Virus record (IMG/VR): IMGVR_UViG_3300042881_003513
Span: 1-63,153 of that record
Origin: a virus
DNA length: 63,153 nucleotides
Strand: one strand, 5' to 3'
The position numbers were made by a program, and so were the translations under genes. Shown piece by piece: positions 12,301 to 63,153 of this stretch. The notes below the pieces were generated by a model. It ran no database searches and had not been told where the DNA came from. It worked only from the letters and a program-made list of their open reading frames with translations. Every line of letters starts with the position of its first letter. The stretch's first letter is position 1.

Positions 12301-15300
12301 GGAAAAGGCGGAGTTGCGCCGGAAGGGTGGGTTGAACCAGAGAAACCATCGGTGCTTCCAGACGCGAAGCCTCCGCACGAAAAGATCATTGGCGAAAGCC
12401 AGTTTCATTCGGACAGGCGTGAACTTGGAAAGCCGACTACCTTTAAGACATGGGAGGCGTATGATAGTTGGCTGAAAACCAAGTCTGACAAGTTCCTGAC
12501 GGATGCGCTGGGAACCCAGGCGAAAAATCTAATTGATCAGATTAAGCAAGAGGCTTCCGGGATGCGTATTCCGAAGAGCGATCGGTCGAATCTGGAAACC
12601 AGAATCAACATCGGTGCGGTGTTCAAGGAGGCGTTGCGTCGTGGATTGCCGGTACCTGAATCCGAGGGGCTTTCGCAATACACGGGATCAAGACCGGCGC
12701 GAAAGGAAGCGCCTAGACAAAATGCATTACCAGAACCACCCGCACCCAATGAGCCAAAGCTACCCGCAAGCGAACGCAACGACCAAAGCCAACCTGAAGG
12801 CGCAAAGCCCGCAGGTGGAGCAAGCGAAGTGGCGAAAACCGAAGAAGGCAAACCCGGCGGCGAGCCCGCTGGACAGGCTGGCGGTAAGCCCGATGCGGAA
12901 ACGGTAGAGCGGCGGAAGAAGATCGTCGGCACGGTGAACGTCGCCATGCGCGGCCACGCGAAGGAGTTGAGCAATCTCGGCCACATCGCCCGCGCGCACG
13001 AGGCGGAGCTTCCCGAATCGAACAAGAGCGGAATCGCGCTCCACAATGGCAAGATCACCGTGGATGCCGAGAAGCTCGACGCGGCGACGGAGCAAATGAC
13101 GCCAAAGGAGCGCGAGACCTACATCAACGCGGCAATCGGCGAGGAGGTTCTTCATAAAGGATTCATGAACTTCGTCAATGAGTCACCCGCGAACCGCGCG
13201 CGCGCGCTGAAGCTCATCGAGGACGAGCCCGCCGCGGTGGAGTATCTGCAAAAACACTACAAGGGATTCGACGCCCTTGATCCGGAACACAAAGCGGCCG
13301 AGATCGCCCGCGTGATCATGCAAGGCAAGGCCGGAGTGACCACCGAGAGCACTTGGAAATTCATCGAGGACTTGATCGCGCACATCAAGCGCATCCTCGG
13401 CAACATGACCGACGCGACGCGCAAGCTGATCGCGGACATCGAGGCGCGGATGAAGGGCGCGGAGACGGAGAAGGCAGCGAAGAAGCCGAAGGCCGAGAAA
13501 CCCGCAACCCGTCCAGAGCGGCGCGATCTTAATCCTGACGAGCAGCGGAAGGTTGATGCCTTGCGCGCGGAGATCAAAAAGCTGAACCAAGGGCGTCCGG
13601 TCGCTGACGACATGGCGATGAACGACAAAGGCGCATCGCTTGCGCGTCTCGAAAAACAGATCGCAGAGAAGCAGGGTGAGATCGATGGGATTTACGACAA
13701 CGCGCGCAAGGCAGAAACGCCAGAGAAACCAAAGCCCAAGAGCAACAGCGTCGGAGTGAACGAGAGGGGGCAGCAGCTTTACGAGGACGAAAACGGCGTG
13801 CGCTACCGCATCGAGGACGGCGTGAAGATTTCCGCGCCCGTGTATATCGTGCCGACTCGCGCGGGCGTGAAAGCCCAGAAGCAGACACCGGAAGGCGAAT
13901 GGCGCACCGCGGAAGAAGCCGCCGCCGAGAAACCGAAACCCCCGCTCCCGAACTTAGAGTCCCAAAAGCCCGCCGTTCTTGAACCGCACGCCACATTTGC
14001 CGAACGCCGCGCGCTGTCCGAGAAGTGGCTGAATACGCTCTCGCCGGATGCGCTGCTGAAGAAGATGGCGGAATACGGCGTCCCGGCCACGCGCGCACAA
14101 AAGGTGTGGGACAAGGCACGCAACCGGAAGCCCGACGACACCAAGGACTACGCCGAGGACTTCCAGCTCGAAGCCGGAGACGATCTTTCATTCTGGGAGA
14201 AGTCCGCGAAATCCCCGCTCCCGAACCGGGGCAGCGTGCTGCCGGAGAAGAAGGCGGATGCGCCGAAGCTCTCGCCGGGCGCGCAGGCCATCAAGGACAA
14301 GCTGGGTGATCTGTTTTCAGCGGCGGCACCTGAGCCGCGTTACGACGCTCCGATCCCGCGCGAGAAGCGCGATGCACTGAACTCTCTGACGGCTGACCTG
14401 ATTGACAGCCACGGCGTTGACACTCCTGAGAAGCTGGCCGCCGCGCTGACGGAACTCGGCCCGAAGGCGTTGGCGTTCTCGCAAAACATTTGGTTCAAGA
14501 TGAAAAGCGAAGGGGCGCAAGGTTCGGCTGAACCAAACTGGAAATCCATCTACGCGCAGCTTGCGCCCGAACCGAAAACCGATATCGTAACACCAGATGA
14601 GCAACCAGCCACTACCCCCAAACTTGAAAGTCCTGCGGATGATAATGGCGATGGTGGAACAACGCCTGGAGGCGCAGAATCCGGGGCTGGTGGAAAAATT
14701 ACAGGAGGAGGGAAAGTGGAAGGCGCAACTGGCGGAACGGGCGAAGAACCTGTTTCAGACGGAGAGGGCGCTTCTTCAGGAGGGAAGATCAAAGCAGGAA
14801 GCGAGGGAGACAGCGATGAACGAGTGGGCGACATTTCCGCCGGACGCGGAAACCTCCGACTCGAACTCAGCGACGGCATCGGCGAAGGCGGACTGACCCG
14901 GAAGTTTCGCGACAACGTATCCGCGATCAAGACGCTTCGCGCGATCGAAGCGGAACGCCGGGACGCAACGCCAGAGGAACAGAAGACGCTCGCGCGGTAT
15001 GTCGGATGGGGTGGACTTGCTGAAAAGGCATTCCAGCCCGGCGGAGAGTTCTACGACGAGATGCAGGCACTCGGACTGAGCGACGACGAGATGGCGAGCG
15101 CGCGCCGCAGCACGACAAACGCGCACTTCACCGCCCCGGAGATGGTGCAGGGCATTTGGGGCGCGCTCGCCAAGATGGGATTCCAGAGCGGGCGCATCAC
15201 GGAGCCTTCAATGGGCATCGGGAGCTTCTACGGCTTCATGCCGGCGGAGATCGCGCGCTACTCCAGCTTGACCGGCATCGAGATGGACAATCTCACGTCT

Positions 15301-18300
15301 CGGATCGCCAAGGTGCTCTATCCTGAGTCAAAAGTATGGAACCGCCCGTTCGAGAAGCACGTCATGGCGGACAACTCACAGGATGTCATCGTGAGCAATT
15401 TCCCGTTCAGTGACGCCGATCACCCGAACGATCCGCGCTACAACAAGATCAACCCGAACCTGCACGATTATTTCTTCCTGAAATCGCTCGATAAGGTGCG
15501 ACCCGGCGGATTCGTGGTCGCCATCACTTCGATCGGCACGATGGACAAGATGGGATCGGCGGTGCGCGAGGTTCTTTCCGCCAAGGCGAATCTTGTCGCG
15601 GCATTCCGACTGCCGAACACGATGTTCAAGGGAAACGCAGCCACGGAAGTCACGACCGACCTGATCATCCTACAAAAACGGGGCCCCGGCGTTCCAATGG
15701 AGCACAAGGACTGGCTGAACCCTGTCCACATCACCACGAGGACCGGAGACGAGATCCGCATCAACCAGTATTTCCGAGACAACCCCTCAAATATGCTCGG
15801 GATCATGACGAGCGAAGGGAAGATGTATGGCAAGACGACCGCCGGAGAGGATGCGAAGAAAGTCGGAAGCAAGGCGCTTCTCTCGGATGGCCGAACCGTC
15901 GCCCAACTCATCGAGCAGATCAAAAAGACGCTCCCTGAAAACATCTTTGTTCCCGAAGACAAGCAGGCGGCGACCATTCGCAATGCCGACGAACTAGAAT
16001 TTGACCCGAACTCTGAAAAGGACGGATCGTTCGTTCTACATAAGAACGAAGTGAAGGTGTTCCGCGGCGGCGAGGTCGAGCGCCCGAGGAAGGAGATTTC
16101 ACCCACCACGAAGCGGCACACGCTGCTTTCCGGCTACATCGAGAGCGGTCACGTCGAGATTGACGACGACGGCACCGTGAAGCGCACCGGGGCGGCGTGG
16201 CCGGAATCGAAGAACCCGACCGACATCAAGCTGCGCGCCGAAATCGAGGCCGGCGACATCACGGGCGAGCAATACAAGGAGTTCCGCGAGGTCGAAGAAA
16301 AATACGAAGACCCGCTCACCGGATCGGAGCGAACCACCACCGTTGAGAGGCAGTTCAGCACGTATGCCTTCGATGGGGATTTCACCAAGGCGGACTATGA
16401 GCGGATCAAGCAGTTGATCCCGTTGAGAAAGTCGCTGAAGGCGGTTCTCCACGCCCAGGTCACGAATGCGGACGACGCCACGCTTGCGGCGATGCAAAAG
16501 GATCTGAACGTGTTTTATGATACCTACGTGAAGGAGAATGGATTCCTGCACGAAGGGAAGACGCGCGCGGCGTTTCAGGATGATCCGTTCTACCCGGCGC
16601 TGATGGCGCTCGAAGATTACGACGCCACGAACAACGAGACGACCAAGACGGACATTTTCAGCAAGCGGACGCGCCCGCGCAAGGAACCGCTCACCGGACT
16701 GACCGGGACCACTCGCGAGAACATGACAAAGATCATGGCGCAGACCGGCAAGGTGGACGTGGAGCTTCAGGCGAAGCTCTCCATGAGAGATCCCGATGAA
16801 CTCGGGGACGAGATGGTGCGCGAGGGGCTTGTGTTCCGGGATGCCGTCACCGGCAACTACGTCGAGCGCGAGGAGTATCTTTCCGGCAACATCTACGAGA
16901 AGCTGCACGCCGCAGAGGAAGCGGCGAAGTCGGACGAATCATTCCGCAAGAACATCGAGGAACTGACGAAGGCGATCCCTGAACTACGCCCCGTTGAGCG
17001 GATCGGATTCTCCTTGGGTGCTGCGTGGATCGATCCGCACACCTATTCCGAGTTCGTAAAGCACATCTACCGCGACCGGGGGCAGGCTTCGGAGTTCAAA
17101 TACAAGAACGGCAGATGGGAGGTCAATGTGCCCGTGCGCGGAAACGCCGAGGGATTTGGAACCGAAGACGTTTCCACCGAGGAACTGATCTCGCAGTCCA
17201 TGAATCTTTCGTCCCCGACGGTTCGCAAGCGATTCGATGACGGATCATCCGTCGTGCTCGAAAAGGAAACGAAGCTGGCGCGGATGGCTCAAAACCGACT
17301 GAAACAGGAGTTCAAGAACTTCATCCTCGACAACCCGGACATCCACGAGCCGCTGGTGAAGAAATTCAACGAACTGGCGAACGCAATCCGCCCGCGCACG
17401 TACGATGCGCCCTACTCCACGCTGGAGGGGATGAATCCTGAAATCTCGCTTCGGAAGCATCAGCTCGATTTCGTTTGGCGCGCGACCGTGGACGGTAAGG
17501 CGGTGGCGGCGCACGTAGTCGGCGGGGGGAAGACGTTCGCCTTCATCGGCGCGGGCATGGAGTGGAAGCGCATGGGGCTCGCGAGCAAGCCCATGTATAT
17601 CGTGCCGAACCATCTTCTGCGCAGTGGGCAGACCGCATCGGACTTCTACCGGATGTATCCGACCGCGAAGATTCTCACGGTGACGGAACGCGATTTCACG
17701 GCAAAGCGCCGACAGAGGCTCATGGCGCGGATTGCAACGGGGAATTGGGACGCCGTGCTGATCGGTCACAGCCAGATCGGATCGATCCCGGTGTCGCCGG
17801 ATCTCATGGCCGCGCACATCCAGGGCGAGCTTGCGGAACTTGAGGAAGCATTGCGCGCCACGAATGACGAGGTGGATCCAAACTCCAAGCAGGGGAAGAA
17901 GCGCATCAAGGCGCTAGAGGCGTCGCTTGCGGCAAAGCGGAGCAAGATGGAGAAGCTGCTCGATCCGCGGCGCGCGGACAAGGCGCTCTACTTCGAGGAG
18001 CTTGGCGTGGATGCCATCATTATTGACGAGGCCCACGAGTTCAAGAATCTGAACTTCTGGACGAAGCTGAACAACATCGGCGGCCTCGGGAGCGCGAACA
18101 CGGAGACGATCAAGACCGCGCAACTGAAGGTGAAGACCGACTACATCCTTCGGCAGAATAATGGCCGCAACCTACTGTTCGCCACTGGCACGCCGATCAC
18201 CAACACGATCGCCGAGGTCTATCTGCTTCAGAAGTACATCGCGCAGGATCTCCTAGACGCCGCCGGCATCAAATACTTTGACGAGTGGGCGCAGATGTTC

Positions 18301-21300
18301 GCGGACGTGCGCGAGGTTGCGGAAATCTCACCCGACGGGCAGACGTTCCAGAACAAGGCGAAATTCGTCGAGTTCAAGAACATGCAGAGCCTTATCACGA
18401 TGTTCCGACGGTATGTGGACATCCAGCGCCAGGAGCAACTGAACCTTCCGGTCCCGCCCCTCTTTGGCGGCAAGATTCAGAACATCGTGTTCCAGCCGAC
18501 TCAGGTTGTTCAGGACTACATGGCCGAGGTCGTCGAGCGCGCGGAGGCGCTGCGCGGCGGGAAAGTGGATCCGAGGGTGGACAACTGGCTCAAGCTGAAC
18601 ACGGACGCCCGAAAGATCAGCACGGACCCGCGGTTGATTGACGCGAATCTGCCGGACGATCCTGAATACAAATCCTCGCGCATCGCGAAGAACACCTACG
18701 AAATCTGGAAGGCGAACGACTACCGCAAGGGCACGCAGATCGTATTTTGTGACCTGTATTCCAACAAGGTCGAGCGCGCCAGGAAGAATGCCTTCGGGGA
18801 GCCGGAGCGTTACAAGCGCGGACCGAAACGCGGGCAGCCCATCGTCGAGAAAGTTGAACTGTTCAACGTGTTCACCGACATGAAGGACAAGCTGATCCGC
18901 ATGGGCGTGCCGGAGGACCAGATCGCCATCATCCACGATTACGAGAAGGATGAGGACAAGGAGGAACTGAAAAGCAACTTCAACGCCGGCAAGATTCGCG
19001 TGCTTCTCGGCACAACGATGAAGCTCGGCACCGGCATGAATCTTCAGCGGCGGATGGTCGCGGTTCACAGCATGGACGCCAATTATCGCCCTGACCAGAT
19101 GACGCAGCGCGAGGGCCGCGGCATCCGGCAGGGAAACCTTTTCCACGAGGCGACTATCGGCGGCAAGAAGGCGCCGGGACGGATGCCGCAGCAACCGAGC
19201 TACGAACTCAGCAAGGACGGCGCGCTCACGACCGGGCCGGGCGGAAAATTCGGCCCTTTCAACATCATCATCACGCGCAACGCGGTAGAGCGCACGCTGG
19301 ACAGCCGTATCTACCAGACGATCACGACGAAAACGAAGATCGTCGAGGATCTGCTGAACGGAGATTACAAGGGCGACACCGCTTCCGACATCAGCGACGC
19401 CGAACTGCGCGGGCAGGAAATGATTGCCGCGGCGAGCGGGAACCCGCTGGTCATGGAGCGCTTCACGCTCGAAAACGAAGTGCGCGATCTGAAGATCAGT
19501 CAGGAGGACTTTGACAGGCGACAGGCGCGAATCCGAAAGGAAATCCGCGAACTCACAAGCGGCATCGAGGAAAATGATCGCGCCATCCCGCATGTGGACG
19601 CGCTTCGGGATGCCCACCGCGCCGCCGACGCCGACATTGATCGCCGGGTCAAGGAGGGCGAGGAGGCCAAGCAAAAGGAACTTTCGGACAAGCATGTATT
19701 CGACCCGGAGACGCCTTTCGTCGTGACTCGGGACGTGAAGAAAAAGGGAAAGCAAACCGAGCTTGAGCTTGCGAAGGAAAAGATCGGAGAGGGCGAGAAG
19801 GAGGAAGTCCCGATGACGATTCTGGACATGCTCAAGGAGCCGCTGAAGAAGACGAAGAACAACCCGGACGGCGAACTCGAATTGCGCGCCTTCGGATTGA
19901 ATGGGCGACTCACGCGGAAATCCGAGCGCATTGAGGCGGCGCAAAGTCTCACGGGAGAATCACGCCTCCGCCACACGTTCAGTTGGAATTACACCGGGGC
20001 CAGCGCGTCGAAGTTTGAATTTGCGACGCAATACAACGACGAGGCGCCAGAGCTTTACAAATACTCAGGAGATAGCCCGCTGCCGAAGTTCAAGGAGCAG
20101 CGCGATTACCTCATCGAGCGCGCCGCGCATCAGTGGCTTTACGACAACGCGAGGCAGACCGATGTTGAAGTGGGCGGAACTCGCTTCACGACATTGCAGG
20201 AGGCAGTCAAGGCACTTGAGCCAAAGCTGAACGCGCTGAAGAAAGGCGAATCGCTTTCGTTCAAGGAGAACGGCGTGGATGTGAGCGTGAAGGCGGAGGA
20301 AAAGAAATCGCTCACCGAGGACGAGAAGAAGAACGCCGACATGCTCGGTGTTGTTCCGATGCTCTATCACGCCAATTTCCCGGCGCTGAAGGACGTTGGT
20401 GCGCAGGCTTACAATCCGCTCGCTTCAAGTGATGCCAGCCAACTGATTTGGCACATCGCCAATTCCCTGAAGTGGATCCCGTCGTCGGAGCAGATTCAAA
20501 AGAACGTCGCCGATCAGAAGAATCAGTTGAAGATGAAGCAGGACGCAGTTCAGACGGCGTTCCCGGAGGCGGATCAACTGGACGAGAAACAGGCGCGACT
20601 CGCGGAGGTGGTGCGTCTCACATCCGGCGATCCGCACGCGCGAACCGCGGATCCGAATGACGATGACGGGCAGATTGCTGACGACGGAAGCGGCGAAACC
20701 TTCTCCGCCGCCGCGCCGGAACGCCGCGCCACCGACGCCGTGGCAGCAGGCGCGAAGGGGCGCGAGGAGACGAAGGAAGACCGCAAGGCGGCGCAGGCCG
20801 CCACGTTCGCGACGAAGCCCCCGGGTGTCGCGTCGCAGATTTGGGATGCCGTCAAGACCGCTGGCAGCGCGACGAAAAGGTGGTGGGGCGAGATGCCAGC
20901 CTACGACACGATTGACAAGGCGATCGGCCAATGGCTCGGGGCAGGGGACAGCGCACCGCTCAAGGGCACCGACATCGTGATCCCCGGCAGACAGAAGGCC
21001 GCGCACGAATCCCGCAAGCTCGTGGAGACGATCGTGAAGCAATTCCCGAACGTGCTCACACGCCAGGCGATCAGCCGCTACATGGAGGCCGACGGCGACA
21101 AGGCCACGCTGCAAAAGTGGGCGGACAAGTCGAAGCCGGAAATGAAGGCGGTGTATGAGCGCGCGCTGAACCTGAACGCCGCGGAGAAGGCGATGGCGGA
21201 CACGGCCAAGACGTTCTTCAAGGAGAAGGGCGAGGAGGCGCAAAAGCTCGGGCTGCTCGGCAACCTGCTGGAGAACTACGTCACGCACTTTGTCGAGAAG

Positions 21301-23256
21301 GCGCCGGCCAACCAGCGCAGCGGGCTCATGGCGCGCATCCTCGGCGATCTCGCCAGCGACACGCCCGCGAGCAAACTGAAGACGAAATTTGACCACGCCA
21401 TCAAGCGCGTGTTCGCGAGCATGTTCGATCTGGAACAGGAAGGGCACTCGCTGCGCGGCGGCGGCGACATCGCAGGCACGCTCGGAGCCTACGCGCAGGC
21501 GGCGAACAACACGGTCGCGGATCGGGTGTTCGTGAAGTCGCTCACCGACATCATGGCGCGCGACGGCCGCCCGATGGCAGTGCCAAGCGGAGCAATCACC
21601 AGGACGGACGGATCGGCGGACTCCCCGCTGCTCATCAAGCCGCACACGCACCCGGCGGACACTTCCGACTACCGCCCGATCTCGCACCCGGCGCTTCGCA
21701 AGTGGAAGTGGCTCGGCAAAGAAGGCGAGAAGGACGTTCTTGTGGAAGGCGAACTACTCATCCACCCCGACCTCTACAAGCGGCTGAAAAACACGCTCGG
21801 CACCTCGGCGCTGAACAACGTGCCGATCATCAAGGCCGTCGGCGAGTTTCAGGCCATCGTGAAGCAGCTCATGCTTTCGTTCTCGCCGTTCCATTTCGTG
21901 CAGGAGGGCACGCACGCCATCGGCCACAAGGTCAACCCCTTCAAAGTGACGGAGATCGACATGGACGATCCGGCGACACGCGAACTAGTGAACGCCGGGC
22001 TCATGCTCGCGAACTGGAACGCCAAGGCGGAATTTGGCGAGGGACTGACGGCGAGCGGCATGGAAAAGCTGCTCTCTCACATCGGACTCGGGAAGCTCGG
22101 GAAGCTGAACGACACGATGAGCGCGTTCCTTTTCGAGAAGTACATCCCCGGTCTGAAAATCGCGATGGCGAAGGAGGCGATGGTGCGCAACATGGAGCGG
22201 TTCAAGAAGGATCTGGCCTCCGGCAAGATGACGCGCGAACAGGTCGCACAGAAGACCGCGCAGCAGGCCAACGACGCATTCGGCGAACAGAACAACCTCT
22301 ACGCGGGCAACAACCCGACGCGCCTGCACTTCGAGCGCCTGCTTTTCCTCGCCCCGGACTTCCTGAAGTCGCGCGCCAAGTTCTTCGCCGATGCGTTCCG
22401 CAAGCACGGCAAGGAGCAACGCAACGCGCTCATCCTGCTCGCCGTCGTCCTCGCAGTGACCGCGAAGCTCCTTGAGCGGATGCTGACCGGCAAGAACGAT
22501 TGGGAGAAGCCTTTCAGCGTGGTGACAGAGGGCCGCGAATACGAGCTGCGCAGCGTCCCCGGCGACGTGATCGCGCTGCTCAAGAACAGGCGGCAGTTCG
22601 TCATGGGGCGTATTTCCCCGCTCATCAGCCGCACCGCGCTCGAAGCGGCCACCGGGCGCGACTGGCGCGGCCAGCAGCGTTCCGGCGCGCAGCAGGTGAA
22701 GGATCTCGCCATGACGCCGCTCCCGCTTGCCCTGCGTGGCGTGATCGACCCGGAGGCACCGGACATCTCCGCGGCGGAGTCGCTGATCAGTTCCTCGGGA
22801 CTGCGCACAATCCGGCACAGCGAAATCACCAAGGCCCGCAAGCTCGGGCGCGAGTGGCAGAAGGCCAACGGAAGCGAGCATGTGGACGAAGTGCATCCGC
22901 CGTCGAAATACGTCGGGATCAAGAACGCGCTCGAAGACGGCGACAGCGCGCGGGCGATGAAGGAATACGGGAAGCTGCTCGCCACGATGCCGAAGGATAA
23001 GGCGGACACCGGATTCCGCTCGTCGCTCATGAAGCCGTTCAGCGGGAGTCTCGCAAACGAGAAGGCGTTCGTCGCCTCACTCGATGCCGACGACCGCGCC
23101 ACGTATCAGGCGGCGATGACGAAGCGCGGACGGATGCTGGCAGCCTTCACGCGCATGTCCGCGACGACGCGCGCGCCGGCCAATGCGCCGCGGGCCGCAG
23201 CGAAGGCCGCGCCGATCGGGAGCCGCAATCTCACGGTGAAGGAGTTCTTCAGGTAG
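9358..23256 (+). CDS. Giant polyvalent protein with DNA methylase and SNF2-type helicase domains
   Basis: A single uninterrupted 4,632-residue protein, 22 percent of the genome. Hydrophobic Gly/Ala-rich segments lie near 430-480 and 540-580. A zincin-like helix with GEEVLHKG lies near 1261. An adenine-specific methylase core has EPSMGIGSFYG (from 1949) and NFPF (2014-2017) in place of NPPY. An SNF2-like helicase follows, with GGGKT (2722-2726), DEAH (2890-2893) and QREGRGIRQG (from 3250). The C-terminal 800 residues are helical with one membrane-like segment (NALILLAVVLAVTAKLL). FSAAAPE occurs at 1653 and 3782 at domain borders. This resembles DarB-like polyvalent proteins that enter the host with the DNA and protect it from defences. 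The virion location is inferred. Confidence 0.85.
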   Translation: MGFDAYEQLAVDPGAVGDVARSILETPSQPGESYADTQYRSAQQAGATARIQAIKGKQWAARGVPSYQDMQGNTKPVMDDTGSPLSKLDPKHNIAYDSTGSPKKIDFDVAGGSPVLKDPFEGLETTTDPKTGHQYKIAPGLPWRWVGTDAQTAQKAEFARQDANLSKASAALGRKLTLTEYDEKFHRDAIKDVRSQLKQLSVADTNSVTGDPLDYDSLVAGINSQFDDLKKNDTTANAKEYFGMGGYTPEALKAQQALDLSRTAALRAAAKGHAHAQTLDGIRQQAEAVRAQRMMIEQTKLDHETEILKAQGIDISQPRQQYGDTPEDSAQNEQIAQSAGVHPATAQAYKQAVAGQKPYAIEGGKPKPIDGKYEEGLTAAAQDGLIAPPAPEVLEAARTADAKYQELIKQAGGNQKLKAFIASGVKSYTALQAGMAASALVAPFDPELAAGGAALGGVGAVVVPMLAHGVAFLAGMFGANKALDALSEKAAEYSDDMASIQAAIKLQPGAAQLGNFAGMGPAAIKSAMNLSKAAGVAAAEATGAGASGAKAAAGYLGKTAGTGAVGGAIFETTIRPGFDWMVDQIGGALGGEKEGVQAPTVGSVLEMAGIGALLSGLHLKIKDIGTAEATDIVKRGMQAMRDGKSLDQVLSPSENDAFMSIGEKLAKMKESGEALIKDPERFSINVRQVLTGEDRPAGDYAKVARDAEIRRTPRQKEIRDKDTFEFQKDGQTDWEAIGNKHGITAAEAQAEYARATQIAGPVQARTTNIEGVEPMKAGLPEPEAQPPASATAKPVTPNPKPAEPGTTNIGEKLGSELDKVEVTPEPPAPTEPAPAAVAKVSPEIPSDLDQRIAPVMEDFTQRLADADRKIAMAKGQGNSDVIAEAKAEKDAIFEDMKQRLGTDIPEQVPQIVRDRLESGTHDWEDGRGLREKEAYRYVIDQHEGEQGMGEPSFYVIRNLDTGKESDPYEKREDAEAFLRAHGKGGVAPEGWVEPEKPSVLPDAKPPHEKIIGESQFHSDRRELGKPTTFKTWEAYDSWLKTKSDKFLTDALGTQAKNLIDQIKQEASGMRIPKSDRSNLETRINIGAVFKEALRRGLPVPESEGLSQYTGSRPARKEAPRQNALPEPPAPNEPKLPASERNDQSQPEGAKPAGGASEVAKTEEGKPGGEPAGQAGGKPDAETVERRKKIVGTVNVAMRGHAKELSNLGHIARAHEAELPESNKSGIALHNGKITVDAEKLDAATEQMTPKERETYINAAIGEEVLHKGFMNFVNESPANRARALKLIEDEPAAVEYLQKHYKGFDALDPEHKAAEIARVIMQGKAGVTTESTWKFIEDLIAHIKRILGNMTDATRKLIADIEARMKGAETEKAAKKPKAEKPATRPERRDLNPDEQRKVDALRAEIKKLNQGRPVADDMAMNDKGASLARLEKQIAEKQGEIDGIYDNARKAETPEKPKPKSNSVGVNERGQQLYEDENGVRYRIEDGVKISAPVYIVPTRAGVKAQKQTPEGEWRTAEEAAAEKPKPPLPNLESQKPAVLEPHATFAERRALSEKWLNTLSPDALLKKMAEYGVPATRAQKVWDKARNRKPDDTKDYAEDFQLEAGDDLSFWEKSAKSPLPNRGSVLPEKKADAPKLSPGAQAIKDKLGDLFSAAAPEPRYDAPIPREKRDALNSLTADLIDSHGVDTPEKLAAALTELGPKALAFSQNIWFKMKSEGAQGSAEPNWKSIYAQLAPEPKTDIVTPDEQPATTPKLESPADDNGDGGTTPGGAESGAGGKITGGGKVEGATGGTGEEPVSDGEGASSGGKIKAGSEGDSDERVGDISAGRGNLRLELSDGIGEGGLTRKFRDNVSAIKTLRAIEAERRDATPEEQKTLARYVGWGGLAEKAFQPGGEFYDEMQALGLSDDEMASARRSTTNAHFTAPEMVQGIWGALAKMGFQSGRITEPSMGIGSFYGFMPAEIARYSSLTGIEMDNLTSRIAKVLYPESKVWNRPFEKHVMADNSQDVIVSNFPFSDADHPNDPRYNKINPNLHDYFFLKSLDKVRPGGFVVAITSIGTMDKMGSAVREVLSAKANLVAAFRLPNTMFKGNAATEVTTDLIILQKRGPGVPMEHKDWLNPVHITTRTGDEIRINQYFRDNPSNMLGIMTSEGKMYGKTTAGEDAKKVGSKALLSDGRTVAQLIEQIKKTLPENIFVPEDKQAATIRNADELEFDPNSEKDGSFVLHKNEVKVFRGGEVERPRKEISPTTKRHTLLSGYIESGHVEIDDDGTVKRTGAAWPESKNPTDIKLRAEIEAGDITGEQYKEFREVEEKYEDPLTGSERTTTVERQFSTYAFDGDFTKADYERIKQLIPLRKSLKAVLHAQVTNADDATLAAMQKDLNVFYDTYVKENGFLHEGKTRAAFQDDPFYPALMALEDYDATNNETTKTDIFSKRTRPRKEPLTGLTGTTRENMTKIMAQTGKVDVELQAKLSMRDPDELGDEMVREGLVFRDAVTGNYVEREEYLSGNIYEKLHAAEEAAKSDESFRKNIEELTKAIPELRPVERIGFSLGAAWIDPHTYSEFVKHIYRDRGQASEFKYKNGRWEVNVPVRGNAEGFGTEDVSTEELISQSMNLSSPTVRKRFDDGSSVVLEKETKLARMAQNRLKQEFKNFILDNPDIHEPLVKKFNELANAIRPRTYDAPYSTLEGMNPEISLRKHQLDFVWRATVDGKAVAAHVVGGGKTFAFIGAGMEWKRMGLASKPMYIVPNHLLRSGQTASDFYRMYPTAKILTVTERDFTAKRRQRLMARIATGNWDAVLIGHSQIGSIPVSPDLMAAHIQGELAELEEALRATNDEVDPNSKQGKKRIKALEASLAAKRSKMEKLLDPRRADKALYFEELGVDAIIIDEAHEFKNLNFWTKLNNIGGLGSANTETIKTAQLKVKTDYILRQNNGRNLLFATGTPITNTIAEVYLLQKYIAQDLLDAAGIKYFDEWAQMFADVREVAEISPDGQTFQNKAKFVEFKNMQSLITMFRRYVDIQRQEQLNLPVPPLFGGKIQNIVFQPTQVVQDYMAEVVERAEALRGGKVDPRVDNWLKLNTDARKISTDPRLIDANLPDDPEYKSSRIAKNTYEIWKANDYRKGTQIVFCDLYSNKVERARKNAFGEPERYKRGPKRGQPIVEKVELFNVFTDMKDKLIRMGVPEDQIAIIHDYEKDEDKEELKSNFNAGKIRVLLGTTMKLGTGMNLQRRMVAVHSMDANYRPDQMTQREGRGIRQGNLFHEATIGGKKAPGRMPQQPSYELSKDGALTTGPGGKFGPFNIIITRNAVERTLDSRIYQTITTKTKIVEDLLNGDYKGDTASDISDAELRGQEMIAAASGNPLVMERFTLENEVRDLKISQEDFDRRQARIRKEIRELTSGIEENDRAIPHVDALRDAHRAADADIDRRVKEGEEAKQKELSDKHVFDPETPFVVTRDVKKKGKQTELELAKEKIGEGEKEEVPMTILDMLKEPLKKTKNNPDGELELRAFGLNGRLTRKSERIEAAQSLTGESRLRHTFSWNYTGASASKFEFATQYNDEAPELYKYSGDSPLPKFKEQRDYLIERAAHQWLYDNARQTDVEVGGTRFTTLQEAVKALEPKLNALKKGESLSFKENGVDVSVKAEEKKSLTEDEKKNADMLGVVPMLYHANFPALKDVGAQAYNPLASSDASQLIWHIANSLKWIPSSEQIQKNVADQKNQLKMKQDAVQTAFPEADQLDEKQARLAEVVRLTSGDPHARTADPNDDDGQIADDGSGETFSAAAPERRATDAVAAGAKGREETKEDRKAAQAATFATKPPGVASQIWDAVKTAGSATKRWWGEMPAYDTIDKAIGQWLGAGDSAPLKGTDIVIPGRQKAAHESRKLVETIVKQFPNVLTRQAISRYMEADGDKATLQKWADKSKPEMKAVYERALNLNAAEKAMADTAKTFFKEKGEEAQKLGLLGNLLENYVTHFVEKAPANQRSGLMARILGDLASDTPASKLKTKFDHAIKRVFASMFDLEQEGHSLRGGGDIAGTLGAYAQAANNTVADRVFVKSLTDIMARDGRPMAVPSGAITRTDGSADSPLLIKPHTHPADTSDYRPISHPALRKWKWLGKEGEKDVLVEGELLIHPDLYKRLKNTLGTSALNNVPIIKAVGEFQAIVKQLMLSFSPFHFVQEGTHAIGHKVNPFKVTEIDMDDPATRELVNAGLMLANWNAKAEFGEGLTASGMEKLLSHIGLGKLGKLNDTMSAFLFEKYIPGLKIAMAKEAMVRNMERFKKDLASGKMTREQVAQKTAQQANDAFGEQNNLYAGNNPTRLHFERLLFLAPDFLKSRAKFFADAFRKHGKEQRNALILLAVVLAVTAKLLERMLTGKNDWEKPFSVVTEGREYELRSVPGDVIALLKNRRQFVMGRISPLISRTALEAATGRDWRGQQRSGAQQVKDLAMTPLPLALRGVIDPEAPDISAAESLISSSGLRTIRHSEITKARKLGREWQKANGSEHVDEVHPPSKYVGIKNALEDGDSARAMKEYGKLLATMPKDKADTGFRSSLMKPFSGSLANEKAFVASLDADDRATYQAAMTKRGRMLAAFTRMSATTRAPANAPRAAAKAAPIGSRNLTVKEFFR
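14597..14896 (+). CDS. Overprinted small protein inside the giant gene (candidate)
   Basis: A 99-residue reading frame, MSNQPLPPNLKVLRMIMAM..., lies in a second frame within the giant gene. It has a normal soluble composition, with two amphipathic helices and an ending EGRSKQEARETAMNEWATFPP that resembles small phage proteins known to me with a ...eAre.A..EW...P tail. Over the same bases the giant protein is a Gly/Ser/Thr-rich linker (about residues 1747-1845), which is the pattern expected when one frame constrains the other. No clear Shine-Dalgarno is present. It could also be chance. Confidence 0.45.
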   Translation: MSNQPLPPNLKVLRMIMAMVEQRLEAQNPGLVEKLQEEGKWKAQLAERAKNLFQTERALLQEGRSKQEARETAMNEWATFPPDAETSDSNSATASAKAD

Positions 23257-23421: not shown

Positions 23422-23498
23422 CGCAGGATGGCGCAGTCCGGTAGCGCGCTTGGCTCATACCCAAGAGGACGCGGGTTCAAATCCCGCTCCTGCAACCA
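23422..23498 (+). tRNA. tRNA-Met (CAT), initiator-like
   Basis: A complete 77-base cloverleaf with encoded CCA. The acceptor CGCAGGA/TCCTGCA has a C1 x A72 mismatch, the hallmark of bacterial initiator tRNA. The D-arm is GCGC AGTCCGGTA GCGC, the anticodon arm CTTGG CTCATAC CCAAG, the variable loop AGGAC, and the T-arm GCGGG TTCAAAT CCCGC. Two of the three G:C pairs expected at 29-31/39-41 of initiators are present; the third is T:A. The 11-24 pair is C:G, as in elongators. It lies 47 bases upstream of the portal start. Confidence 0.9.
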
Positions 23499-52086: not shown

Positions 52087-52127
52087 GTAACCACGCAATC
52101 CACCGCAGCCAGAAATCCGAAGCATGA
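52083..52127 (+). CDS. 14-residue leader-type peptide
   Basis: MSNHAIHRSQKSEA, stop. It overlaps the upstream stop and contains the start-context motif and the primase ATG at its end. Probably a coupling leader rather than a functional protein. Confidence 0.3.
   Translation: MSNHAIHRSQKSEA
52111..52127 (+). promoter_or_regulatory. Start-context motif AATCCGAACCATGA, copy 5
   Basis: AGAAATCCGAAGCATGA contains the ATG at 52124 of the primase-helicase, with one base different from the consensus. Confidence 0.55.
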
Positions 52128-54421
52128 ACCTCGACGAAATCAAAGAATCCCTGCGCGAGCGCGCGGCAGAACTCGCAACCTTCCTTTTTCCCACCGGCAA
52201 GATGGCCGGCAGAGAGTGGCAGATCGGCGACGTGAGCGGATCGCCGGGATCGTCGCTTTCGATCTGCACGAGCGGCTTGAAGGCTGGCGTGTGGAAGGAC
52301 TGGAGCACGGGGGAGACCGGCACCTTGCTCGACCTCTGGGCGATGCGGCACGGCTACCACGGCGGCGACGGATGGGTGGCGAAGGCGGGCGAAGAGTGCG
52401 CGTCGTGGCTCGGCGGGCAATTTGAGAAGCGCCAGAAAGACGGCACGACGGCACCCGCGGCAACCAATGGGAGCCATCCGGCACCCGCTCGCCCGCGCGT
52501 GGCAACACCCCCGCCGCGTCCGACGCCGAGGGTGAAGCCAGCGGCGCTCCCGGCGCTGCCAAGCTACGCCGACGAGTGGCAGAAGTGCGTGGAGGCGATG
52601 ACGAGCAAGGCGCTGGCGCAACTCTGCGAGCAACGCGGCTTTTCGCTGTCGTTCGGTGGCTGGCTCGTGGCGCAAGGGCTCATCGGCCTGCATGAGACTC
52701 GGCACGGACTGGCACTCGCGCTGCCGGTGCATGACGAGAGCGGCGCGGTGATCGCGGCGCACGTTCGCAACCGACAGAAGGACGCGGCGGGCAACCCGCT
52801 CGATCCGCCGCCTCCGAAATGGCAGTATCGCTATCACGGCGAGCAATCGCCTGGCACGCGGCCGCTCATCATCGGCGACATCGCCAAGGCATCGAAACTC
52901 TACACGTTCGAGAGCCAGTGGGACGCCTTCGCGGTGATCGACCGGCTCGGGCTGCACCGCGGCGAGGCTGAATGGCCGCCGATTGCGTTTTTCATCACGC
53001 GCGGTGCCAGCAACGCGGCGATCCTCGCCCGCTACATCACCGAGGGGCGCGCGCTCATCCTCTGGCCGCAGAACGACCAGCCGACCGAGGCGGGGAAGAT
53101 TCCGGCGGAGGAGTGGGTGAAAAGCATCGTGTCGCTCGCTGGAAGTGTGCCGTGCAGGCGCGTGGCGACGCCGAAAGAATACGAGGATCCAAACGACTGG
53201 CTGAACAAGGACCGAGAGGCTGGCGCGATCCAGCTTTTTGAGGCGATCTCCCAAGCTGTGCCAGCGCGCACGACGAAGCTGCCGCCGATGCGGGACATGG
53301 CTTTCGCCATCCGGCCCGAGAATCGTTCGCCGGTTCCGCCGGAGGTGATCAAGGGCATCCTCCACCGCGGATCGAAGATGGTGATCGGCGGGACGAGCAA
53401 GGGGCGGAAATCGTTTTCCCTGCTCGATCTCGCTGTTGCTGTGGCGACCGGCGGCAAGTGGTGGGGCTTCGATTGCAATCAGGGGCGCGTGCTCTACCTC
53501 AACTTCGAGATCCAGCAGCCGTTCCTCGAGGCGCGCGTGTTCGACATCACGCAGGCGAGGGAGACGACGGTGATGCCGGGATATTTCCAAAGCATCTCGC
53601 TCCGCGGTTCGATCGAGACGGTGGAAGACCTGGCAAAAGACCTGATCGCCTACATCCTCGATTTGGAGCCATTCGCCATGATCATCTTCGATCCGGTGTA
53701 CAAGCTCATGGCTGGCAAGGACGAGAACAAGGCGGGTGACGTGGGCACGATCATGGCGCACCTTGAGCGCGTGAGCGTGGAGACCGGCGCGGCGATCGTC
53801 TTCGGCGCGCATTACTCCAAGGGGAACCAGTCGGCGAAGGAGAGCATTGACCGCATCGGCGGCTCCGGCGTGTTCGCCCGCGATCCTGACGCGATCCTGA
53901 CGATGACCGGGCACGAAGTGGAGAACGCTTTCACCGTGGAGGCGACGCTTCGCAACTACAAGCCGATCGATCCTTTCGTCGTCGGCTGGCAGTATCCGCT
54001 TTTCTCGCGTGATGACTCGGGGCTGGATCCCGCGGCGCTGAAGATGCCGCCGGGGAAGAAGGGCGAGAAGGAGAAGGGCGGCGACCGGTGGGAGGGCGGG
54101 CGCAACCTTCGGAAGAACGACCGGCTTTTGCCCGCGCTCGAACTGCTGCGACTCTGCTACACCGAGGTTCCGCGTGCCGTGCGGATGTACGACGCGACGC
54201 GGAAGGCGGTGGCGACGATGTTCGACGGTCTCGGCAACCCGCTGAAGGAGGACACGGCGAAGAAGTATTTCTACAAGCTGAAGGACGACGGTTACATCGT
54301 GAAGGATTCCGGTTCATCCAACTGGATCACCACGAAGCTCGGCGACGATTACCTCGACGCGCGGGCCGCAAAAGATTCCGCAGAACCAACAACTGAACCA
54401 ACAACTGAACCAACAACATGA
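52124..54421 (+). CDS. Primase-helicase (RepA/DnaB-like ATPase)
   Basis: A 765-residue protein. Residues 1-110 are an alpha/beta domain. Residues 235-400 resemble a Toprim-like primase region (TFESQWDAFAVIDRLG, FFITRGASNAAILARYI). Residues 415-580 are a RecA/AAA ATPase with Walker A GGTSKGRKS (422-430) and Walker B IIFDP (Asp523). The C-terminal 100 residues resemble a winged helix, followed by three EPTT repeats. It would prime and unwind phage DNA. No separate polymerase was recognised, so host polymerase is presumably used. Confidence 0.78.
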   Translation: MNLDEIKESLRERAAELATFLFPTGKMAGREWQIGDVSGSPGSSLSICTSGLKAGVWKDWSTGETGTLLDLWAMRHGYHGGDGWVAKAGEECASWLGGQFEKRQKDGTTAPAATNGSHPAPARPRVATPPPRPTPRVKPAALPALPSYADEWQKCVEAMTSKALAQLCEQRGFSLSFGGWLVAQGLIGLHETRHGLALALPVHDESGAVIAAHVRNRQKDAAGNPLDPPPPKWQYRYHGEQSPGTRPLIIGDIAKASKLYTFESQWDAFAVIDRLGLHRGEAEWPPIAFFITRGASNAAILARYITEGRALILWPQNDQPTEAGKIPAEEWVKSIVSLAGSVPCRRVATPKEYEDPNDWLNKDREAGAIQLFEAISQAVPARTTKLPPMRDMAFAIRPENRSPVPPEVIKGILHRGSKMVIGGTSKGRKSFSLLDLAVAVATGGKWWGFDCNQGRVLYLNFEIQQPFLEARVFDITQARETTVMPGYFQSISLRGSIETVEDLAKDLIAYILDLEPFAMIIFDPVYKLMAGKDENKAGDVGTIMAHLERVSVETGAAIVFGAHYSKGNQSAKESIDRIGGSGVFARDPDAILTMTGHEVENAFTVEATLRNYKPIDPFVVGWQYPLFSRDDSGLDPAALKMPPGKKGEKEKGGDRWEGGRNLRKNDRLLPALELLRLCYTEVPRAVRMYDATRKAVATMFDGLGNPLKEDTAKKYFYKLKDDGYIVKDSGSSNWITTKLGDDYLDARAAKDSAEPTTEPTTEPTT

Positions 54422-56283: not shown

Positions 56284-56472
56284 CTACGGGCTGATCCGAT
56301 CGGCGAGCGCGCGGGCTTGTTCCGCGCGGATGCGGTCTATTTCCCGGCGGCGGCGGTTATTCTGGCGCACGAAGGCCCCGCGGCGTCCGAGTTCCCGGCG
56401 CGCTTCGGCGAAGGTGATGCCGCGCGCGGATGCCGTGGCGAGGGTGAGGGTGTTTAGGTCGTGGCTTTTCAT
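56284..56472 (-). CDS. Duplicated small basic protein, copy A
   Basis: A 62-residue protein, 87 percent identical to the one at 59300-59488. The conserved end (RRGAFVRQNNRRRREIDRIR...) is Arg-rich and helical. Possible DNA or RNA binding. The promoter would lie upstream in the minus operon. Confidence 0.6.
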   Translation of the reverse strand: MKSHDLNTLTLATASARGITFAEARRELGRRGAFVRQNNRRRREIDRIRAEQARALADRISP

Positions 56473-59299: not shown

Positions 59300-59488
59300 C
59301 TAGGGGCTGATCCTGTCCGCCGTTGCGCGGGCTTGCTCGGCGCGGATTCTGTCAATCTCCCGGCGGCGGCGGTTATTCTGGCGCACGAATGCGCCTCGGC
59401 GTGACAGTTCGCGGCGGGCTTCGGCAAACGTGATGTTGCTGGCGTTCGCGATGGATAGTGTAAGGGAGTTCAGATCGTGGGATTTCAT
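59300..59488 (-). CDS. Duplicated small basic protein, copy B
   Basis: A 62-residue protein (MKSHDLNSLTLSIANASNIT...). Its paralogue is at 56284-56472; differences cluster in residues 8-19. The leader is CCCGACAAAACCATGAAA. Confidence 0.6.
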   Translation of the reverse strand: MKSHDLNSLTLSIANASNITFAEARRELSRRGAFVRQNNRRRREIDRIRAEQARATADRISP

Positions 59489-59792: not shown

Positions 59793-60143
59793 TTAACCGA
59801 CGGTCAACTCTGCTTTGATTCGGCGCAGAGCAGTCGCGATGTGAGAATCGTTAAGGCCAGCGTTGTAAAGATGGCAGTAGTCGCGTCCGGTGAATGGCAG
59901 CACGCGCTTCCATGCGCCGCCCGCAAAGCCTGGGTGTGCGTCGTCATAGGCGCGATTGCGATCAACGACCGTGTGCAGGCCGTGCATCGTGAGCAGGCCA
60001 GTCTTTCCGCCATCCGCAGCGGCGATATTGACGCCAAGCGCCTTCGCGGCAGTGGCGATGTCGGTTTTCAGTTGCGCGAAGTCGGCGGGTGTAATTTTCA
60101 TCGTGTGGAGCGGTTTCTCGATGTGTGGTGTGATGTTTTTCAT
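59793..60143 (-). CDS. Hypothetical protein
   Basis: A 116-residue protein starting MKNITPHIEKP; the first four residues match MKNIT of the 58869 gene. The middle (FAQLKTDIATAAKALGVNIAAADGG) is helical. No family was recognised. Confidence 0.55.
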   Translation of the reverse strand: MKNITPHIEKPLHTMKITPADFAQLKTDIATAAKALGVNIAAADGGKTGLLTMHGLHTVVDRNRAYDDAHPGFAGGAWKRVLPFTGRDYCHLYNAGLNDSHIATALRRIKAELTVG

Positions 60144-60165
60144 GGATTGGGTTTGGTTGAGAGGG

Positions 60166-60330
60166 TTAGCGGGCGCCGCACTTGCAGCAGTGGGATTCAC
60201 CGCGGAGAACGGTGTGCAGGCCGTGAGTGGCCGCGACGCATTCGCCGACGGACTGAGCGAGGGCGACCGATGCGCTGCGATCGATGCGGCTGATCAGGAT
60301 GGTCGGGCGGGGCTTTTGCGTGGTGTTCAT
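60166..60330 (-). CDS. Small cysteine-tailed protein
   Basis: A 54-residue protein (MNTTQKPRPTILISRIDRSA...) ending CCKCGAR. It is the first gene of the minus operon. The start lies seven bases after a CATACT box, so the mRNA could be leaderless. Confidence 0.5.
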   Translation of the reverse strand: MNTTQKPRPTILISRIDRSASVALAQSVGECVAATHGLHTVLRGESHCCKCGAR

Positions 60331-60429
60331 GGATGGGAGTATGCAACAAAGTGAAAACCGCGCAAGGATTATTTTCGCAAAGTGCAATTTTACCTATGAA
60401 AAAAAGATTCACGAAAAACGAAACGAGCA
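60331..60429. promoter_or_regulatory. Divergent control region
   Basis: AT-rich spacer between the minus operon and the XRE-type regulator. On the minus strand TTGCGC, 16 bases and CATACT precede the 60330 start. AAAGTGAAA and AAAGTGCAA words 34 bases apart may be operator halves. An ATG at 60396 is in frame with the regulator and could extend it by 23 residues. Confidence 0.5.
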
Positions 60430-60470
60430 CTTGCCAGCGTTGCGAATTTGTGAAATCGTGCGGAATGAAT
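60430..60470 (+). repeat. 41-base leader repeat, copy 1
   Basis: CTTGCCAGCGTTGCGAATTT continues into GTGAAATCGTGCGGAATGAA. It matches 60764-60804 at about 33 of 40 positions and ends at the ATG of each gene. TTGCCA, 17 bases and AATCGT are promoter-like, with the ATG five bases later. Confidence 0.6.
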
Positions 60471-60755
60471 AAACCCGAAAAACCGCCGTCCTTCGCCGAT
60501 GAACTCAAGACCGAACGCCTCCGTGCTGGCCTCACGCAGACCGATTGCGCCAGGCTCCTCGATGTGAGCCTGCACACGATTTGCAAGTGGGAGAAGGGAG
60601 CGAGCGCGCTGTCGCTCACGCAAGAAGCGGCACTCGGCAGACTGCGCGCAGCGAAGCCCGCGGTGCCCTCGCTCCAGCAGCAGTTGAGCGCGATGCCGCG
60701 GGCGAAGCTGGAGCGGCTCGCGGCCTCGTTGGTGAAGGGCGGAAATAAAAAGTGA
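60465..60755 (+). CDS. XRE-type helix-turn-helix regulator
   Basis: A 96-residue protein. LKTERLRAGLTQTDCARLLDVSLHTICKWEKG (about 13-44) is a helix-turn-helix of the Xre/Cro kind. The C-terminal helices may dimerise. It is the first gene of the divergent right operon and probably represses one of the two promoters. A longer form from ATG 60396 would add a short cysteine-bearing N-terminus. Confidence 0.75.
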   Translation: MNKPEKPPSFADELKTERLRAGLTQTDCARLLDVSLHTICKWEKGASALSLTQEAALGRLRAAKPAVPSLQQQLSAMPRAKLERLAASLVKGGNKK

Positions 60756-60763
60756 AAATCGTT

Positions 60764-60804
60764 CTTGCGATCGTTTCCATATTGTGAAATCGTGCGGCAT
60801 GAAC
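60764..60804 (+). repeat. 41-base leader repeat, copy 2
   Basis: CTTGCGATCGTTTCCATATT continues into GTGAAATCGTGCGGCATGAA, ending at the ATG at 60799. It may be a second promoter or operator recognised by the same regulator. Confidence 0.6.
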
Positions 60805-61263
60805 AAGACCACAAACCAAGCATCCACCCTCGTAAAACTCACCGATGAACTGCGCGCGCTCGGCGTTGATACGGCATTCGAGGACATCACCGGAGCCGTG
60901 AGCTTCGACGCGAAAGACGGGCGTCATTTCGTCGTCGGAAACGTCAACAGCATCGTCGGCGCCGACATCTACGCCAGCCGCGCCAGCTTCGAGCGCGGGG
61001 ACCTTCCTCAAGGCGATTGGGAAACCGCCAGCGAGGATCCCGCCAGCATCGCGAAGGAATTGCACGCGCTCGCCTTTCCGCTCACCAAGGCGCAGCTTCG
61101 GAAGGAAATCACCAAAGTGAAGTTCGCGATTCGCTACGCCGAGATTCACCACGGTTACAACAGCCCGCAGCGCGCCGAGGTGATCAAGCGACACACGGCC
61201 CTGCAAGTGGCTCTCGGCGCGATCGAGCTCCGTGAACTCGGAATTGAACCCGTGAAATCGTAG
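60799..61263 (+). CDS. Hypothetical protein
   Basis: A 154-residue protein. The first 60 residues are alpha/beta and the rest is helical and basic (FPLTKAQLRKEITKVKFAIRYAEIHHGYNSP). No family was recognised. It shares its 5' leader with the regulator gene, so co-regulation is likely. Confidence 0.6.
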   Translation: MNKTTNQASTLVKLTDELRALGVDTAFEDITGAVSFDAKDGRHFVVGNVNSIVGADIYASRASFERGDLPQGDWETASEDPASIAKELHALAFPLTKAQLRKEITKVKFAIRYAEIHHGYNSPQRAEVIKRHTALQVALGAIELRELGIEPVKS

Positions 61264-61311
61264 TGCGGACACAACTCAACGCCGAGCGCAAAAAAAAGAA
61301 GGAAACAGCCA

Positions 61312-61914
61312 ATGAGCCGACACGCTGACACATTCTTTCGGCGGGAGCCGATCTACCGCGCGATGGCAGACATGCCGGCACTCACCCACTGGCGCGACCG
61401 CGGGCGACCGTGGACGCCGGAGCAGTCGGACGTGCTCCCTTGGATCGTCGCCCTTGGCGTGACGCTGGCCGACGCACAGAGGATTCTCCCGGCGGCTCGA
61501 GTCAAGGGCGTGGTGGAGTTTCTCCCGGCGCGCAACCTCTGGCGCGGCACTGAGGACACGCGACGGCTGGAGGACGTGGCCGATCTCCTGACGCGGAGGA
61601 AGCGCGCGAAGCGCACTCCCAAGCAGCGAGCGGCGAAGCCCGCGCAGCGCAGCACGGCACCGGCTCCCGGCCCGCGAGTCCGATGCAACGACCGCATGGC
61701 CGCGGCGCTCGTCGTGTTCGAGCGATGGAGGAAGGCGAGCAAGGTGCCAGCGTGGACCTTCGCGGACCTCGTTCGCTCGTTCGTGATCCACTCGGGCGAC
61801 GGGAAAGCCGATACCATGCGACGCTACATCCGAGCCCTGCACGCGGCCGGATGGCTCGTCAAGGATGCGGATGGAATGCTCTCAGCCTCATCACCGACGA
61901 CGCCGGCACCGTAG
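61312..61914 (+). CDS. Hypothetical protein with possible winged helix
   Basis: A 200-residue basic protein. Residues 95-130 are Arg/Lys/Pro-rich (RRKRAKRTPKQRAAKPAQRS). Residues 145-190 (FADLVRSFVIHSGDGKADTMRRYIRALHAAGWLV) resemble a winged helix. DNA binding is likely. It ends 15 bases before a terminator. Confidence 0.6.
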   Translation: MSRHADTFFRREPIYRAMADMPALTHWRDRGRPWTPEQSDVLPWIVALGVTLADAQRILPAARVKGVVEFLPARNLWRGTEDTRRLEDVADLLTRRKRAKRTPKQRAAKPAQRSTAPAPGPRVRCNDRMAAALVVFERWRKASKVPAWTFADLVRSFVIHSGDGKADTMRRYIRALHAAGWLVKDADGMLSASSPTTPAP

Positions 61915-61929
61915 CCAGCCACTCCAAGC

Positions 61930-61964
61930 AAGCCCGGCCTGCACTCCAGCTCGCCGGGCTTTTT
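61930..61964 (+). terminator. Rho-independent terminator
   Basis: AAGCCCGGC (61930-61938) pairs with GCCGGGCTT (61953-61961), and the T-run continues to 61964, with TTTTT again at 61973-61977. It closes the rightward operon. Confidence 0.85.
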
Positions 61965-61998
61965 GCTGCCTGTTTTTAATGGTTAAGGTATGTAAGAA

Positions 61999-62200
61999 GG
62001 GACGATTCGGGATGAATTTAGGGACGAATTACAAACCGTCCCGCGGGGGGCTCACACGACGGGATAGTTCTAGGGATGTTTTGTTGTGTGGACACACTAG
62101 TGGTCCACAACAACCATCCCTAGACACATCCCGGCAGTGAGCGGCGACTTTTCGGGGGGCTCGGAAAACTCAAAAACAAAACCGTCCCGAAATCCGTCCC
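61999..62200. repeat. Cluster of GGGAYG repeats
   Basis: GGGACG or GGGATG hexamers on one strand or the other start at 61999, 62009, 62021, 62037, 62073, 62115, 62127, 62183 and 62195. Nine in 200 bases, in both orientations, suggest binding sites for an initiator or regulator. Confidence 0.5.
62070..62123. repeat. Long imperfect inverted repeat
   Basis: CTAGGGATGTTTTGTTGTGT at 62070-62089 is nearly the reverse complement of CACAACAACCATCCCTAG at 62106-62123. The centre is ACACTAGT. Each arm carries one GGGATG repeat. It may form a cruciform or bind a dimeric protein. Confidence 0.65.
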
Positions 62201-62976
62201 GCCGATTTGAGGCGGAAATCAGACGCTCAAAACCTGCACGCCGGAAAGCAGGGGCTGGGACAAGCCGGGGATCGGATTCCACCAGACCGCGCACGCCTTC
62301 GCGAGCTTTGCCGCCGCCTTGCCAGCGCGGGGATTCCACCAAGGGCAGGACAGCGGACGACTCAACAGAAGGGCACCACGGGGCGTACAGCGCGTCGGAT
62401 TTTTGGCGAAATGGGCGAAATCGGGCGTTTCGGGGCTTTTTGCGGGTTCGGGCCGGTTTCATGGACTTCGGGCCAAGACGAGGACGGGGTGCCAATATCA
62501 CACCTCGACCCCCGAGCTGCGATACAGCACGGAAGATTCACGCACCTTTATTACGGAAGAAGCGTAAAAAGGTCAACAAACGACAGACAGACCGTGATCG
62601 GGAAATCGGAAACTCCACACGGAGGCCAACCCTGCGCGCGTGGCCGAACGTGCATGGCCGGCGAACATCGGGTCGGCGGAAGGCCAGGTGCCGGAGCGTG
62701 GTCACGGGCGGTCACACCGGAAGCCGGAAGCTTGACTGCGGCATCGCCGCTCGTCCACGATGCCGGCCGAACCGGATACGGTGATCGAGCGAATCGCGAC
62801 CGAAATCCTGTAATTACCATAACGAAAAGACCGCCGGAAGTTATGGAAATTAGAGCGAATGCCGTAAGTGTCTCGGAATCAGCAACTTAGCAAAAGTGAT
62901 AACATCCCACAATAGACAAAAAATCAAATTGAAACCGAAAAGCGAAAACCACCGACCGACGACCGCGGCCTCGACC

Positions 62977-63153
62977 GCCGAGCTGCACACCGTCCGCCTG
63001 CCTCGGTTCCCGATTCGACCTCGGCATCCACTCAGCATGTTCACGATTGCGTCGGCGACCACGGCCCACGGTGCCAGCCGGGGCGGATGGGCAGACGCTC
63101 CAGTCCGCCCGCTCCCGCCCACGGGCGATCTCGGGTTCACTTAACTGCCCCTC
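62977..63153. repeat. Terminal direct repeat, right copy
   Basis: It repeats 1-177 with one mismatch. Joining the two copies gives a 62,976 bp circle. Confidence 0.9.

Follow-up and report, generated by a model that had tools for sequence, protein, structure and literature searches.

A cluster of inverted GGGAYG repeats around a stem-loop as the probable replication origin of a tailed phage

The stretch of DNA analysed here as a whole, referred to below as the window, is a viral contig of 63,153 bp. Its last 177 bases (62977-63153) repeat the first 177 (1-177) with a single mismatch at offset 127, and the map therefore closes to about 62,976 bp; the window represents a tailed-phage genome that closes into a circle. 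It encodes phage-type proteins (a terminase, a portal, a major head protein, a Bet-like annealing protein and an exonuclease) together with methyltransferases, a DarB-like giant protein and a primase-helicase. The presence of one sibling contig in a Verrucomicrobiota bin suggests Verrucomicrobiota as the host. A nucleotide search against named phages and plasmids gave no match.

Downstream of gene 61312 (61312..61914, + strand), which encodes a 200-aa protein, extends a gene-free region of 1,427 bp that runs from 61915 to 62976 and, across the circular junction, from 1 to 365. A large gene-free setting had already been noted in the preliminary description of this DNA, and our analysis confirmed it. 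The GC-rich hairpin followed by a T run at 61932..61964 (+ strand) is, judging by its sequence, the probable terminator of gene 61312, and it stands between this gene and the repeats. At 62795..62934 lies an AT-rich, well conserved stretch (GC 0.32-0.50) that could serve as an unwinding element. Beyond the junction, a non-coding 140-bp block at 165-305 holds two copies of CCCGTGTCGAAG and is almost invariant among four siblings; it is a candidate for a packaging site or for a strong regulatory region ahead of the first genes.

The nine GGGACG/GGGATG hexamers that were said to lie in both orientations within 200 bases are indeed present at 61999-62200. These GGGAYG sites were located at 61999, 62009, 62021 and 62073 on the + strand and at 62037, 62115, 62127, 62183 and 62195 on the - strand, and a tenth, relaxed site (GGGATA) was found at 62061. 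The three left outer repeats (GGGACG, GGGATG and GGGACG; 61999..62026, + strand) are followed by an inverted outer repeat at 62037..62042 (- strand), which is part of AAACCGTCCC, and the two right outer repeats (CCGTCCC) occupy 62183..62200 (- strand). Between them lies a 74-bp stem-loop (62060..62133) with one pair of repeats, 12 bp apart, in each arm: GGGATA at 62061 and GGGATG at 62073 on one side, CATCCC at 62115 and 62127 on the other. The arms 62060-62081 and 62112-62133 are 82% complementary and form a single stem-loop with the inner arms. Thus, the 54-base central inverted repeat reported previously exists, but it is only the inner part (approximately 62069-62124) of this larger structure. 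The single-strand DNA fold of 62055-62140 had a z of -8.1. Inside the pairs the repeats are spaced by 10-12 bp, that is, about one helical turn, a feature absent from the earlier account. The second-densest GGGAYG cluster of the window contains 3 sites per 202 bp, and the maximum count per 202 bp in 40 Markov-1 genomes of the same composition was 4. Since some more frequent words attain 7-8 copies in 220 bp within genes, the hexamer count alone is good but not extreme, and the argument rests on the arrangement of the repeats and their conservation.

To describe this conservation we used as siblings three viral contigs with close relatives of 61312-61914, two of which share one version, and the version from the Verrucomicrobiota bin. 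The repeats and the stem-loop were kept in all four sibling contigs (three distinct versions). Within four sequences, 5 of the 28 predicted stem pairs were altered on both sides. The inner stem and the loop differ between siblings with the pairing kept, and the spacers between the paired repeats change in step (TCTA/TAGA, TCGA/TCGA and TGGA/TCCA). Sequence conservation among the siblings was lower in the stem-loop (0.82-0.83) than in its flanks (0.92).

A divergent allele was observed in L022 and L023, which are otherwise 91-97% identical to the window and in which the sequence is sharply replaced from about 60108 to 62229. The replaced block spans the HTH gene, gene 61312 and the putative origin, with homology resuming exactly at 62229, and it looks like a modular exchange of a replication/regulation cassette. 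In these phages the 61312 protein version is 48% identical, the C-terminus of the primase-helicase is nearly identical, and the repeat region is longer, with twelve GGGAYG sites, two relaxed sites and a repeat-armed hairpin. As the replaced block retains GGGAYG, the hexamer is conserved and its surroundings are not.

The primase-helicase gene (52124..54421, + strand) is located 7.6 kb from the cluster, which directly follows gene 61312. Its product belongs to PHROG 2597 and has an AAA_25 helicase core; a Pfam primase domain was not detected in it. The 61312 protein, which gave no protein match among named phages, carries a C-terminal winged helix (about aa 127-192) and is a candidate reader of the repeats. 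The AF2 model had a local pLDDT of about 70-82 in the winged helix and of 54 as a whole, and the structural comparison was made with the winged helix only; IclR-type regulators were among the closest PDB matches, with a probability near 1 across some 67 residues and an E of about 0.01. When the winged-helix profile was run against the 69 window proteins, the best non-self match was the C-terminus of the primase-helicase (E 0.0019), where the resembling part covers aa ~660-735 (54101..54328, + strand; pLDDT 35 in the AF2 model of this C-terminus). The pairwise score of the two segments was 62, compared to 26 ± 4.3 for shuffles, and 1 of 2,000 shuffles scored higher. The pattern T-x-[KR][KR]-[YW] is common to the helices KEDTAKKYF of the primase, KADTMRRYI of the 61312 protein and SEKTIRRWI of phages with GGGACA repeats. 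Because of this similarity, the 61312 protein and the primase C-terminus are both putative GGGAYG readers, and either or both may recognise the hexamer. In the Verrucomicrobiota-bin sibling (two contigs joined by an exact 127-mer overlap) the putative recognition helix of the primase reads KQNTAAHYW, whereas the 61312 relative retains the basic pair and GGGAYG is retained as well. The 61312 protein is therefore the more likely main reader, and the primase may not be the reader. Other genomes encode the N-terminal domain of the 61312 protein on its own. The host-order genome G045 contains it alone at five or more places (L033-L037), with some copies interrupted by stops, and these copies form a small multi-copy gene family.

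For a wider comparison we examined the gap following the primase-helicase gene in 26 named phages whose primase-helicase is of the same family. In 15 of them the top hexamer formed a cluster with p < 1e-6 for that word: GGGACA in Javan17, 249, 311, 355, 534 and 629, AGGACA in Javan68, CGAAAA in Javan173, Javan199 and phiKSM96, and CGGAAA, AGCTAT, CGGGCA, ACTGCA and CCGCAA in MissE1, EFC-1, Castelnaud, Aster and Vegas, respectively. The remaining 11, e.g. Javan74, 157, 235 and 377, lack a strong cluster in this gap, and no clear hexamer cluster was seen in the gaps of BFK20 and Caulobacter RW. The origins of phage BFK20 and of S. thermophilus phages have reportedly been the subject of earlier work. 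Several of the gaps contain hairpins, and the hairpin arms of EFC-1 hold the hexamer. In a set of 16 non-redundant streptococcal phages, the resemblance between gap hexamers correlated with the identity of the last ~70 residues of the primase-helicase (Mantel r 0.62, partial r 0.63, p 0.0001, the p-value being indicative since these phages have a recent past in common and we ourselves chose how to measure hexamer similarity), and with the rest of the protein r was 0.08. Moreover, GGGACA or AGGACA was present in 7/7 phages with SEKT[IV]RRW, and CGAAAA in 3/3 phages with KERT[IV]ENY. The primase tails of the named phages look like helix-turn-helix segments. The correlation of the hexamer with the identity of the tail, and not with that of the rest of the protein, is strong comparative evidence that in the named phages the hexamer is read by the tail and that replication starts in the gap. 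No earlier report of such a covariation was found in the searched collection of papers available without subscription.

The prophage G045, whose primase-helicase is 59% identical to that of the window, has, directly after the primase gene, a gene related to the 61312 N-domain; GGGATACGGTTT repeats come next, with a stem-loop whose arms hold GGGATACGGTTT. By eye, the gene after this stem-loop looks like a terminase small subunit. The GGGACGGTTTT-like repeats of the window and the GGGATACGGTTT repeats look related. Of the host-order prophages, G045 and L211 had a clear hexamer cluster following the primase gene; those of L206, L210 and L212 were suggestive, and none was seen in L207, L208, L209, L213 and L214. 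When viral contigs were searched for the GGGAYR architecture pattern, at least 119 loci were found, a number that includes siblings and mixes unrelated repeats, some of them tandem arrays (L161). The complete scan with scrambled hexamers as a control gave 36 loci, and GGGAYR clusters were thus enriched at least threefold. Many of the matches listed are GGGACA or GGGATG clusters that adjoin primase or helicase genes, for example in L118, L103, L119, L129, L066, L054 and L107, and those of L071 and L105 lie inside primosomal or O-like initiator genes. Also among the matches listed are about 40 mutually related phages of 41-47 kb with a GGGACA cluster, spaced by about 12 bp, just before the terminase small-subunit gene (for example, 10074-10221 in L133).

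These observations lead us to consider the repeat cluster probably the replication origin of this tailed phage. The preliminary description had named a replication origin, a partition site and a major operator as candidates; the comparison strongly favours the origin, the partition site is left with weak ParA-like matches, and the operator remains a minor rival. Several points count against the origin. The cluster lies 7.6 kb from the primase-helicase gene, whereas the hexamer clusters of related phages adjoin theirs; the primase helix is changed in the Verrucomicrobiota-bin sibling; there are GGGACA clusters adjacent to terminase genes; and a strong cluster is missing from 11 of the 26 named phages. 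In addition, the GC skew, proposed earlier as a check, showed no clear turning point in the window.

If the cluster is an origin, the GGGAYG hexamers, with their spacing of about a helical turn and their inverted groups, would be binding sites for the winged-helix domain, which is carried by the 61312 product and, in related form, by the C-terminus of the primase-helicase. By binding there, this domain would bring the primase-helicase together on the cluster, and the DNA would be opened, with the AT-rich stretch 62795-62934 as a possible place of unwinding. The repeat-armed stem-loop, extruded or single-stranded, could then act as a loading or priming site, by analogy with pRN1, RSF1010 and P4.

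In comparison with known systems, the window combines a cluster of short repeats in non-coding DNA with a phage-encoded primase-helicase, as in the iteron origins of the P4/SaPI type. It differs from phage P4 alpha and its origin (PMC4234260) in the AAA_25/RecA-like helicase core, in the presence of a second protein with a similar winged helix and in having repeats built into the stem-loop. In SaPI Rep and SCCmec Cch2, the C-terminal domain of the helicase reads short iterons in the gap following the helicase gene (PMC7581432); the window resembles them in its short-iteron cluster, but a distance of 7.6 kb separates this cluster from the primase-helicase gene, and the helicase is of another family. 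The origin of pRN1 is a stem-loop of about 100 nt after the primase-helicase gene, functions when moved, and has a conserved pairing but not a conserved sequence (PMC4234260). The large stem-loop of the window is likewise less conserved in sequence than its flanks with the pairing kept; however, pRN1 has an SF3 helicase and lacks iterons, whereas the window has an AAA_25 core and repeats that surround and arm the stem. The oriV of RSF1010 relies on a separate repeat reader, RepC, the helicase RepA and a primase recognising the hairpins ssiA and ssiB (PMC4234260, PMC4538821). Unlike RSF1010, the window has no long direct iterons of the kind read by RepC, only hexamers in both orientations, and its primase and helicase are fused. 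The putative origin is a variant of the P4/SaPI/pRN1 kind, with a distant primase gene and an adjoining separate reader-like protein. The system of PLE RepA and ICP1 Odn has a DNA-binding domain that varies together with the origin, and a copy of this domain sits on a second protein (PMC8263062). The protein families are different here, and no nuclease domain was recognised in the 61312 product. Since the Odn nuclease borrows the origin-reading domain for a different purpose (PMC8263062), the 61312 protein could also serve in regulation or interference.

Other explanations were weighed against the origin. The repeats could belong to a packaging site (pac/cos) bound by the terminase small subunit, given that the gene-free region precedes the terminase genes (1084-1803 and 3700-5979) and ends near them, and that the about 40 related phages among the matches listed have their GGGACA clusters immediately before the small-subunit gene. 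However, elsewhere the hexamer clusters lie next to primase genes and change together with the C-terminus of the primase, and that of G045 directly follows the primase and 61312-like genes. Moreover, the block at 165-305 with its two CCCGTGTCGAAG copies is nearer the terminase genes and a better candidate. Packaging is an unlikely function of the repeats. A major operator, at which an HTH repressor (60396-60755) or the 61312 protein would control transcription, is suggested by the nearby HTH gene and by the winged helix of the 61312 product. Yet the nearest + strand gene start is about 1.1 kb downstream and a terminator lies ahead of the cluster; the paired changes preserve a stem for which an operator has no use, and elsewhere this anatomy goes along with primase genes. 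An operator would also leave unexplained why, in relatives, the hexamer is linked to the C-terminus of the primase. We therefore regard an operator as improbable.

The paired changes and the strong RNA fold (z -5.6) would also suit a structured RNA encoded in the gene-free region, but the Rfam scan matched only a tRNA and no Rfam family corresponds to the repeat/stem-loop element, and the outer repeats of both orientations are conserved as motifs outside the stem-loop; such an RNA seems very unlikely. Equally slight is the probability of a partition site, a recombination/attachment site or a mobile repeat element. Inverted repeats do flank the core, and one small protein gave ParA-like matches, although these are weak (E 0.0002-0.0009). 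No convincing integrase, HUH Rep or transposase was found among the scanned proteins, the only integrase match being a weak one (E 0.002) to a protein beside the major head gene, and the pattern was missing from 212 of 213 host-order genomes, the sole match being a sibling phage.

With the origin reading, a repeat cluster of no evident function becomes an origin that can be tested. We tentatively propose, as a possibility rather short of an even chance, a code running through this widespread family of primase-helicase phages, in which the helix-turn-helix tail of the primase-helicase specifies its own origin hexamer, and in which Verrucomicrobiota-associated phages have copied the tail onto a small protein beside a relocated origin, resulting in a two-protein recognition (initiator, copy-control factor or decoy). 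A general link between primase tail and origin word would be the most interesting outcome. It suggests that sequence alone could suffice to locate the origins of many uncultivated phages and to pair them with their initiators, the recipe being a hexamer cluster with hairpins after a primase-helicase gene combined with a comparison of primase tails. It also puts natural variants on offer for how a winged helix changes its target word.

Elsewhere in the window, the gene at 9358-23256 has a product of 4,632 aa with matches to DarB-like antirestriction families and to methyltransferase/helicase families, and a tRNA-Met (CAU) gene lies at 23422-23498, between this giant gene and the portal gene. 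Two near-duplicate genes for 62-aa proteins (56284-56472 and 59300-59488, minus strand) both start with MKSHDLN and share RRGAFVRQNNRRRREIDRIRAEQARA, and the interval between them differs in one sibling.
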